A model generated the notes under the pieces. The model did not search any database and was not told where the DNA came from. It saw nothing but the letters and a program-made list of their open reading frames with translations. A stretch of DNA of 44,658 bases. It comes from Sulfurovum sp. (GTDB taxonomy: Bacteria; Campylobacterota; Campylobacteria; Campylobacterales; Sulfurovaceae). Positions 5,159 to 28,417 of the stretch are shown piece by piece. Made by a program: the position numbers and the translations under genes. The DNA lies in NCBI GenBank assembly GCA_027068435.1, contig JAMOTA010000015.1, positions 1-44,658 of the forward strand, written 5' to 3'. Each line of letters opens with the position of its first letter. The stretch's first letter is position 1.

Positions 5159-5455
5159 TTATACCATTCCATTCAAAGAGGTAGCATAGAAATCATCAGG
5201 AGAAATCTTAAATATTTTAGGTTCAGTTTTGAACCAACTCTGTACAGCTTCATAAGGAGTTCTGACTTTTAACTCTCTTCTTAAACTACCATCTCTTCTG
5301 TTTATATTGTAGTATATCAAGAACTTTTGTAAATCTTCTTTTAATTCTTTTATATTTTTATATGTCTCTACTTTAATAGTTGCATTTTTAATTGTACCAT
5401 TTACTCTCTCTACCATTCCATTGGTTTGAGGTTTTGTCGGTGTTTTCGTGGGAAA
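5159..5455 (-). pseudogene. IS481-type transposase, C-terminal fragment
   Basis: About 100 codons of the integrase-core C-terminus: KPQTNGMVERVNGTIKNATI is the classic rve_3 motif that carries the last catalytic Glu. It is followed by LQKFLIYYNINRRDGSL and RTPYEAVQSWF. The helix-turn-helix N-terminus and the first two catalytic Asp residues are absent. The open frame starts at 5485 only because it runs into unrelated RAYT-derived sequence; homology begins near 5455. It is therefore a dead remnant fused to another decayed transposon. Confidence 0.85.
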
Positions 5456-5464
5456 ACACCCTAC
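5439..5464 (-). repeat. REP-like element: GTAG tetranucleotide plus perfect hairpin
   Basis: Read on the minus strand, GTAG (5464-5461) is followed at once by GGTGTTTTC, the loop CCAC and GAAAACACC, a perfect 9-bp stem. A GTRG tetranucleotide at the foot of a hairpin is the defining structure of REP elements mobilised by RAYT transposases, and a RAYT remnant lies directly upstream. The same GTAGGGTG core recurs in a REP pair inside lnt at 27431-27488. The right arm overlaps the IS481 fragment coding sequence, so part of the pairing could be fortuitous. Confidence 0.6.
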
Positions 5465-5916
5465 GGGAACTATATTTCCAATCATTTATATTCTCTACTA
5501 GACCATGTTTTATGGGGGTTGTTATAGATATAGTTTAGGATGTTCAGATAATCTTTTTCATCTCGAATGGTATGTTCATAAAATCTTTTTTACCACACAC
5601 CAGATAGATTGCGTCTATAACTTGAAGCTGTCAAGTTCCATCGTGCTTCATCTTTTACTTTTTGCTCTAACTCATAGGTAAAACTTCTTTTAATATGAGC
5701 AATAATTTTTGAGTACTCCTTTGGATTTTTAGGAGTAATTATCATGTGTATATGGTCAGGCAAAATAACAATGGCATCTATTATGTATGTATATCGTTTT
5801 TTACTACGACGAAAACTGTCACGCAACAACTCAATATTTCCAATAAGAAGAGGTCTTCTATGTTGAGTTATGATAGTTAACAACTTCCAAAGTATGGATA
5901 CTTTTGTTATCTGCAT
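5465..5916 (-). pseudogene. REP-associated tyrosine transposase (RAYT, Y1_Tnp/HUH), decayed
   Basis: The central part is intact: NIELLRDSFRRSKKRY and the HUH motif in IVILPDHIHMIITP. At least three lesions are visible. (1) The N-terminal YFGS segment is in another frame from LLTIITQHRRP, near 5880. (2) After NLSGVW a TAA codon (near 5590) replaces the expected Gln; the same frame continues with KRFYEHTIRDEKDYLNILNY. (3) In a run of five C bases near 5515 the frame shifts again, and HGLVENINDWKYSS continues in the next register. The tail is then lost at the junction with the REP hairpin. RAYTs are single-copy domesticated relatives of IS200/IS605 transposases that handle REP hairpins. The stop of xerH is 4 bases upstream. 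Confidence 0.8.
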
Positions 5917-27083: not shown

Positions 27084-27096
27084 AAAGGAATCCTTT
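27084..27096. promoter_or_regulatory. Palindromic bidirectional ribosome-binding site between yajC and lnt
   Basis: AAAGGAATCCTTT reads AAAGG on both strands around AAT. On the plus strand AAAGGA (27084-27089) precedes the lnt TTG at 27095 by 5 bases. On the minus strand the other arm gives AAAGGA 7 bases before the yajC ATG at 27083. One 13-bp sequence therefore supplies a Shine-Dalgarno to both divergent genes. Confidence 0.65.
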
Positions 27097-28417
27097 GAAT
27101 AAAATTAAACATTATCTTAGCACTTTTGAACTAACAAGATGCTTTTTTATGGCTCTTTTAAGCTCTGCATTTATATATCTAAATTTTTTTGGTATCTCTT
27201 ATCCATTTTTAAACACCCTTCTAGGCATTCTCTCTCTGTATCTACTGCTTAAAGAAGAAGAAAAAACATGGTTTTACTTTGGTGCATTTGTAGGGCTTTT
27301 TTGGTTTTGGTGGATAGTAATAAGTTTTAAACATTATGAGATGCTCTGGGCTATTCCTATTGGACTTGTAATGATAGCACTTATATATGGAGTGGTTTTC
27401 TGGTTTATAGCCAAAATAGCATCTCTTACCGTAGGGTGTATTTATCCAGCAAATTCTAGCACATTAAAGGTGGATAAATCCACCCTACTCTCTCTTTGCA
27501 TAAAAGGATTAGGGCTTTTACTACTTAGTTACCTACACCCTTTTGGGTTTGACTGGCTAAAGCTTGAACTTATGTTTGTAGAGAGTTACATAGGCATAGA
27601 AAAATGGCAGTTTTTAGTCGTACTTTTAGCTCTCATTCTTACGCTAGGAAAAAGAAAAAATATCTATCTTATTTTAATATTTTTAGCGTACCAACCCACA
27701 GACGTCATCTCCCATGATAACTCTCCTACTAAAGAGAAAATAGAACTTATTAGCACACACACAACCGTACAAGACAAATGGAACACTGCACTCCAACCTA
27801 CACAATTTGAACTACTTTTTGCACAGATAGACCAAGCTATAGAGGAAAACAAAACTTTAGTCATACTCCCTGAGTCTGTTTTTCCTCTTTTTTTGAACCA
27901 TTCACAAACACTCATAGACAAACTACAAAAGAGAGCAAAAAAGATAGATATAGTCACAGGAGGACTCTACTGGGATGGAAAGGTTCCACACAACTCTACT
28001 TACATTTTTAGACAAAACAAAATAAGTGTTGCACACAAAGTGATACTCGTTCCCTTTGGTGAGAGTAACCCTCTACCCAACTTTTTAAGTGACTGGGTAA
28101 ACAGAGTCTTTTACGATGGAGCCATCGACTACCAAGCAAGTGCCAACATAACTGACTACAAAGTAGGAGAAGTACATTATAGAAATGCCATCTGCTTTGA
28201 AGCGACATCAGAAGCACTTTATGCAAAAAGCAAAAAGGGGAACTACCCTAAAAACATGATAGTCCTAAGTAACAACGGATGGTTTACCCCCTCCACTGAA
28301 CCCACTTTACAAAAACTCTTATTAATGTACTATAGTAAGAAGTATGGCACAACCATTTACCACGCAGTCAATATGTCTGAGTCATACATTATAGAGGATG
28401 GAAAGGTACGAGATTAA
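27095..28417 (+). CDS. lnt: Apolipoprotein N-acyltransferase with an in-frame REP insertion
   Basis: 440 residues from a TTG start. Lnt transfers a third acyl chain to the N-terminal Cys of lipoproteins in the inner membrane. N-terminal membrane segments are followed by a nitrilase domain with the catalytic triad E260 (VILPESVFPLF), K315 (AHKVILVPFGESNPLP) and C367 (NAICFEATSE). Residues about 113-132 (VGCIYPANSSTLKVDKSTLL) break the membrane domain and are encoded by a REP pair. Without 69 bp flanked by TCTCTT repeats the protein would read AKIASLCIKGLGLLLL, as expected for the family. It overlaps the convergent 28414-28770 gene by 4 bases. Confidence 0.9.
   Translation: MNKIKHYLSTFELTRCFFMALLSSAFIYLNFFGISYPFLNTLLGILSLYLLLKEEEKTWFYFGAFVGLFWFWWIVISFKHYEMLWAIPIGLVMIALIYGVVFWFIAKIASLTVGCIYPANSSTLKVDKSTLLSLCIKGLGLLLLSYLHPFGFDWLKLELMFVESYIGIEKWQFLVVLLALILTLGKRKNIYLILIFLAYQPTDVISHDNSPTKEKIELISTHTTVQDKWNTALQPTQFELLFAQIDQAIEENKTLVILPESVFPLFLNHSQTLIDKLQKRAKKIDIVTGGLYWDGKVPHNSTYIFRQNKISVAHKVILVPFGESNPLPNFLSDWVNRVFYDGAIDYQASANITDYKVGEVHYRNAICFEATSEALYAKSKKGNYPKNMIVLSNNGWFTPSTEPTLQKLLLMYYSKKYGTTIYHAVNMSESYIIEDGKVRD
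27431..27488. repeat. Inverted REP pair (BIME-like) inside lnt
   Basis: GTAGGGTGTATTTATCCA (27431-27448) and TGGATAAATCCACCCTAC (27471-27488) form an 18-bp stem with one mismatch around a 22-base loop. Each half is itself a REP: on the minus strand GTAG is followed by GGTGGA-TTTA-TCCACC, a perfect hairpin; the plus-strand half is a degenerate version. TCTCTT occurs at 27422-27427 and 27491-27496, 69 bp apart (23 codons), and may be a target duplication. The GTAGGGTG core matches the REP beside the RAYT remnant at 5439-5464. Confidence 0.75.

Follow-up and report, generated by a model that had tools for sequence, protein, structure and literature searches.

The window, as we call the whole stretch of 44,658 nucleotides analyzed here, comes from a Sulfurovum genome of 2.0 Mb (59 contigs, 94% complete). 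Inspection of the sequence placed two inverted GTAG-type REP units, in frame, within its predicted lnt gene. The features of this locus are as follows.

27140..28417, plus strand: lnt, predicted apolipoprotein N-acyltransferase, 425 amino acids from the ATG at 27140; an in-frame TTG lies upstream at 27095
27422..27427, plus strand: TCTCTT, left of the REP pair; not taken for a target duplication
27431..27450, plus strand: left REP unit, with GTAG foot and one departure from its family (GGTGT); starts at residue 98
27443..27484, plus strand: codons 102-115, the modelled H4-H5 loop (AlphaFold2; pLDDT 65-80 for this block)
27451..27468, plus strand: spacer between the REP units, from the sequence
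27469..27488, minus strand: right REP unit, with GTAG foot and a perfect GGTGGA-TTTA-TCCACC stem
27491..27496, plus strand: TCTCTT, right of the REP pair; not taken for a target duplication

The arms of the REP pair (27431-27448, GTAGGGTGTATTTATCCA, and 27471-27488, TGGATAAATCCACCCTAC) are 18 nt long, are separated by 22 nt and are 94% complementary (17/18, one mismatch). Each unit has GTAG at the foot of a short palindrome on its own strand, and the two are inverted, as is characteristic of GTAG REP dimers. A preliminary description of this DNA had reported inverted units with such arms inside an open lnt frame, together with a minus-strand half bearing the GTAG foot and the perfect hairpin, and both statements were borne out. 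In the left unit GGTGT stands in place of the GGTGG of its family, so that the stem is imperfect and forms a poorer hairpin by itself. When up to three mismatches were allowed, the 17-letter REP core was expected 0.28 times in the window and was found twice in only one of 100 shuffles; both copies in the window are exact. Rfam searches of the window and of 11 loci gave no match.

Against the curated model NF008934, window Lnt scored 466 bits (cutoff 427), and against TIGR00546 it scored 155 bits (cutoff 133); a Pfam scan assigned it no family, and relatives are labelled PF26365. Residues E245, K300 and C352, which we take to be the catalytic Glu-Lys-Cys of Lnt, are invariant in the Lnt alignment. 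An AlphaFold2 model built from 44 sequences (mean pLDDT 87.8, pTM 0.89) has the predicted fold of the E. coli and P. aeruginosa enzymes, its best structure matches being solved Lnt structures (5xhq, 5vrg, 5n6m and others) at 15-18% identity. E. coli Lnt has eight helices, the last of which follows the nitrilase domain, whereas the modelled window protein seems to be without that helix.

In the model, helix H4 (71-101) is joined to helix H5 (116-131) by a loop (102-115), in agreement with the earlier proposal that the insert lies in a loop between membrane helices. Since the REP pair encodes residues 98-117 (numbered from the ATG at 27140), the insert is predicted to lengthen H4 by about one turn and to form the loop. 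Both termini of E. coli Lnt are cytoplasmic according to the accessible text of PMC5500888, from which we infer that the H4-H5 loop of window Lnt would be on the cytosolic side.

The preliminary description treated the two TCTCTT copies, spaced 69 bp start to start, as flanking direct repeats that mark an insertion preserving the frame exactly. The repeats are present and the frame is open across the REP pair (ORF 27095-28417), but the pair itself spans 58 bp, which is not divisible by 3, and 69 bp is only the TCTCTT spacing. A 6-mer common to two 14-nt flanks of this composition has a chance of about 0.03. No counterpart was found in nine other REP-bearing lnt loops, where the flanks have 3 to 5 nt in common, and no target duplication by REP movement is known. 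TCTCTT was consequently rejected as evidence of a target-site duplication. The 69-bp segment corresponds to residues 95-117 when counted from the ATG at 27140 and to 110-132 from the TTG at 27095, so that the range of 111-133 given before was off by one.

Allowing up to two mismatches, the window REP unit (family F1) had 21 matches at 18 sites of the source genome, compared with 1 for the reversed control; the motif thus has the other genomic copies that the insertion reading called for. Of these sites, 17 are clear of genes or reach no further than an ORF's 5′ end, so the copies are dispersed and mostly intergenic, as in GTAG REP dimers and as had been supposed. The lnt site was the only one judged to be well inside a gene, from ORF reading of 3-kb loci. 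At two sites, L005 and L018, the unit overlaps the 5′ end of an ORF; no Pfam family was assigned to the ORF at L005, and that at L018 is GTP cyclohydrolase I, with a Pfam match that begins at residue 19.

REP dimers of E. coli (BIMEs, or REPINs) are inverted short palindromes with a GTAG foot that are mostly intergenic and occur with RAYT transposases. The window pair resembles them in being inverted and GTAG-footed and in belonging to a mostly intergenic family; it differs in that the pair is intragenic and that no F1-flanked RAYT gene was found in the source genome.

Lnt was matched in 73 of 78 genomes of the genus. From 155 loci we obtained 98 different Lnt sequences, a few of them partial, and 94 were placed on a tree calculated with the loop excluded (L095, L097, L098 and L099 were omitted as too short). 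GTAG REPs of five stem families occupy the H4-H5 loop in 10 of the 94, distributed as follows.

F1 in the lnt loop: L025 (window), L026, L069
F2 in the lnt loop: L027, L031, L072
F3 in the lnt loop: L041
F4 in the lnt loop: L036, L059; confined to one clade
F5 in the lnt loop: L038

An F5-like unit was also found in the loop throughout one clade of five (L158, L162, L166, L171, L172), which fits inheritance from one event. A sixth palindrome, F6 (GCGTTGC...GCAACGC or a close variant), is in 10 of 94 loops, and tandem arrays of period 7 are in 16 of the 97 tested; six loops have both. At the threshold used, lnt outside the loop had no 7-bp arrays; of the other periods between 3 and 15, multiples of 7 excluded, none was seen in more than a single loop. 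In total, 35 of 94 loops bear some listed repeat and 59 do not. Note that L095, whose contig starts within the loop and whose sequence is unconvincing, stands outside this count (an earlier union gave 36/98). In Sulfurovum, repeats have settled again and again in the H4-H5 loop of Lnt. The view that a BIME inside a gene is unusual is not supported in this light, since intragenic REPs have been published (PMC3733652) and the same loop carries a repeat in 35 of 94 Sulfurovum Lnt sequences.

In one further sequence, L097 (G031:C2:48400-50300), lnt is matched in pieces with a stop, and a 7-bp array lies at roughly the point of the split, within the loop region; this sequence is not in the repeat counts.

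Among the inner segments of Lnt, this loop has the greatest spread of lengths (sd 8.6 residues, range 47). In 20 order-level relatives, 36-50 residues separate the anchors (37 in 12 of the 20), compared with 60 in the window, and loop length may be constrained outside the genus, where it is short. With a second anchor pair, the window has 48 residues and repeat-free Sulfurovum sequences have 32-59, most of them 35 or 39. The clean 23-residue gap expected in an alignment with relatives therefore holds against the order-level relatives (60 versus mostly 37), but not against repeat-free Sulfurovum, where the gain is usually 9 or 13 and the flanks differ too. Among the 98 Lnt sequences and 120 listed protein homologues (of 1218 found), the residues of the window loop recur only in P0001, whose loop is identical, and no REP-free relative sharing them was found.

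P0001, at 98% identity the nearest of the 120 listed homologues, differs from window Lnt at seven residues and is missing three N-terminal residues. Repeats are known to cause misjoins and the source genome is fragmented into 59 contigs, so that the insert could in principle be an assembly artefact in which repeats were misjoined. Because so close a relative has the identical loop while differing elsewhere, misassembly is unlikely; with the open frame, the homology of both flanks to lnt and comparable inserts in many other records also speaking against it, we regard an artefact as extremely improbable.

On the lnt tree the GTAG-REP state requires 8 changes, and placing the ten GTAG-REP sequences in one clade was rejected (p-AU 9e-21, from a quick tree). 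When the loops of the window and the 120 listed homologues were compared with an expression for REP-encoded peptides built from observed loops, 35 of 121 matched. Outside the loop P0017 and P0022 share 91.8% identity; an F2-type dimer is present in P0022 and absent from P0017. Judged from these sequences, presence and absence of REPs among relatives would be compatible with mobility.

The same comparisons leave room for a second account, in which a few old insertions were followed by exchange of loop alleles between species and REPs with GTAGGGTG...CACCCTAC feet swap at the same spot. The foot of the left REP is in the same codon phase in 9 of the 10 GTAG-REP sequences, and combinations of REP and flank, e.g. 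AKIASIP-VGCC...TTPY, recur in several otherwise different proteins of the 120 listed. Taken together, these suggest that loop alleles may also travel by recombination. P0076 and P0118, which are 91.2% identical outside the loop, differ in REP family, and the left unit of the window, which begins with GTAGGGTGT as in family F2 and continues as F1, could be a mosaic (or the product of point mutation). Set against exchange are the five stem families, with F4 in one clade and others single, and the several flank contexts. Rejection of a single clade also counts against it, yet that test addresses descent along the gene tree and not transfer. We consider exchange following few insertions to be possible, although of rather low probability.

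A bias in codon phase might also be expected if the insert were kept for a function, either because a REP hairpin in the mRNA slows translation between the membrane helices or because the peptide acts in the cytosol. The RNA of 27425-27495 does fold strongly (−25.6 kcal/mol, z −6.2). The sequence, family and length of the insert are, however, unconserved, and the 59 loops devoid of listed repeats likewise argue against a function, which we think very unlikely.

The families found in lnt also occur elsewhere in the genus. F1 was found in 26 of 78 genomes (34 matches in G033, which bears F1 in lnt), F2 in 40 (37 matches in G017 and 25 in G010) and F5 in 27 (11 matches in G012); F6 was found at 33 places in 12 of the 78. 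Reversed controls for these searches gave 0 in the rows shown. F1, F2, F5 and F6 are dispersed repeats in genomes of the genus.

To what extent these repeats enter genes was assessed in samples that were small and not random. Of the 42 F1 matches in G033, loci were available for 30, and only two units were inside an ORF by the rule used, both in lnt. For G017, where loci were available for 30 of 37 F2 matches and lnt itself is among the seven lacking one, there was one further in-gene site, an F2 REP pair in frame in an NFACT (rqcH-like) gene (L305:660-2039, minus strand). Genus-wide, 30 loci were sampled for each of F1, F2 and F6; 31 of these 90 overlap only an ORF end, and few of those were resolved. 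No in-gene case was accepted for F1. One was accepted for F2, a REP pair in frame in priA between the 3′ DNA-binding and helicase domains (L227:3-1811, minus strand), and four for F6, all in lnt, in addition to a lipoprotein-like ORF whose start overlaps the element. These small, non-random samples thus contain few in-gene REPs, and lnt takes a disproportionate share of the genes with in-frame repeats.

Several candidates were discarded in this assessment. L200 was read as a chance match within the sequence of a Tex-like protein; L202, L207 and L220 have no Pfam family; the REP of L195 is outside the ORF; and in L218 and L237 the gene start was read as downstream of the REP.

The concentration of repeats in one loop could alternatively reflect a directed integration site, at which a DNA structure attracts elements. 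A candidate is the hairpin formed by the codons for LxLKAxGLLxLS, just 5′ of which the 7-bp arrays of lnt sit. These codons form a palindrome of up to 15 bp (e.g. L028, L031, L035, L083) that exceeds a synonymous-codon null, with a paired run of at least 10 in 7 of 96 sequences and a null mean of 0.007. It co-occurs with loops containing 7-mers or F6 (Mann-Whitney p 9e-6, kinship ignored), and F6 loci elsewhere often directly abut a locus-specific inverted repeat (score of at least 8 in 13 of 30, mean 7.5 versus 4.0 in shuffles; four lnt loci and one near-duplicate are among the 30). On the other side, GTAG REPs show no association with the downstream hairpin; for 7-mer arrays agreement is limited to 2-3 of 8 independent pairs, with almost none opposed (sign test p 0.25); and the stem at these codons in the window (27500-27533) is only 6 bp. 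Attraction by DNA structure is in our estimate quite unlikely. In the wider form of the idea, the H4-H5 loop would be a true integration site to which unrelated palindromic elements are steered or in which they are swapped like cassettes, and this we hold to be doubtful.

The coding palindrome was rejected as a dispersed repeat, being found in 7 of 78 genomes at one place each. Six of these places are in lnt (G007, G010, G023, G071, G076, G082) and one is elsewhere (G035), indicating that the palindrome belongs to lnt.

Three Y1_Tnp matches were found in the source genome, two of them with an internal stop, and in this 94% complete assembly the F1 unit was not found at any of the three loci with up to four mismatches. 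One match is in the window.

5518..5880 (within 5159-5916), minus strand: Y1_Tnp match (REP-associated transposase type), with one in-frame stop and no F1 flanks

It is possibly a decayed relative of the mobilizer. It adjoins an ORF with a fused REP, GTAGGGTGTTTTCCCACGAAAACACC, that is not F1; this ORF is presumably an integrase-core fragment. At a second locus (L023, around 1306-2027; G000:C23), a Y1_Tnp gene with no stops has REPs of the GTAGGTCGGGTTCCCC type on both sides and is likely to be a RAYT with its own REP family, distinct from F1 and from the REP beside the window match. According to the accessible text of PMC3733652, RAYT transposases are the hypothesized movers of GTAG REPs.

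The REP dimer in lnt is in our judgment best explained, with a probability of roughly 0.65, by blind insertion together with tolerance of a dispensable H4-H5 loop. A GTAG-type F1 dimer, probably moved by a RAYT transposase, would have come to lie in frame in this loop. Insertion would be blind to genes and most coding insertions would be lost; those in the H4-H5 loop, one of few such coding sites, would pass selection because lengthening it does no harm, and such tolerance would be the reason for their retention. Over the genus, the same loop would in this way collect 7-bp tandem arrays and a second family of palindromes as well as several REP families, and the added peptide would have no function. 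The gathering of unrelated kinds of repeat in one loop points to tolerance rather than to target choice by one transposase. Several observations sit less easily with blind insertion and tolerance. Tolerance alone does not require lnt to be over-represented among genes with in-frame repeats; the single codon phase in 9 of 10 sequences and the recurring REP-plus-flank combinations fit allele exchange; no Y1_Tnp gene of the source genome is flanked by F1; and the loop of order-level relatives is short.

In-frame intragenic REPs are already known. As described in the accessible text of Di Nocera, De Gregorio and Rocco (2013, PMC3733652), intragenic GTAG REPs, over half of them dimers or grouped, encode 20-30 residues for which a role as flexible loops or linkers was suggested; the recB genes of two Xanthomonas species have different REPs at about the same site; and Sulfurovum NBC37-1 is named as a holder of GTAG and CGTC repeats. 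The main text of that paper names neither lnt nor an acyltransferase. What differs here is that five GTAG families and other repeats occupy one loop of a membrane enzyme across a genus. Rickettsia palindromic elements, the older example, as far as they are described in the accessible text of PMC10969869 and PMC3733652, are about 150 bp long, lie in frame in many unrelated protein genes and are probably tolerated. The window insert is similarly palindromic and in frame in a protein gene, but its pair spans 58 bp and has GTAG feet, so that it falls short of the length of those elements. Literature searches that covered few subscription journals returned no report of REPs in lnt, and genus-wide recurrence in one Lnt loop with turnover of families is absent from the literature searched.

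The lnt loop amounts to a natural experiment on selfish palindromes becoming protein, having been filled repeatedly over about a hundred genomes that include near neighbors without repeats, and the rate, choice of frame and fate of coding REP insertions are measurable there. The loop seemingly tolerates long insertions, which could be of practical use in tagging the enzyme. Were it a true integration site, Lnt would carry a fast-changing, repeat-encoded loop that tracks the resident repeats of each genome.

Most of the 30 F6 loci contain the palindrome, about 7 bases and then roughly four copies of a 7-mer whose sequence varies from locus to locus (ACTCTTC, ACTATTC, ATTCCTC and others). They have the appearance of a composite dispersed element made up of AGCGTTGCNNNGCAACGC, about 7 bases, about four 7-mers and often an inverted repeat (L240-L269, around position 1500), and the composite is also seen in lnt (e.g. 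L039, L051, L058, L083, L092). No Rfam match was obtained for it in nine loci tested. The 3′ arm of its inverted repeat sometimes holds the AGGAG of the following gene. At L264:1483-2028, an ORF starts MNQRNKSVAKQRIPKFLIPHSSFLIPIALVLLTACG, and here part of a lipoprotein signal peptide is apparently specified by the composite element.
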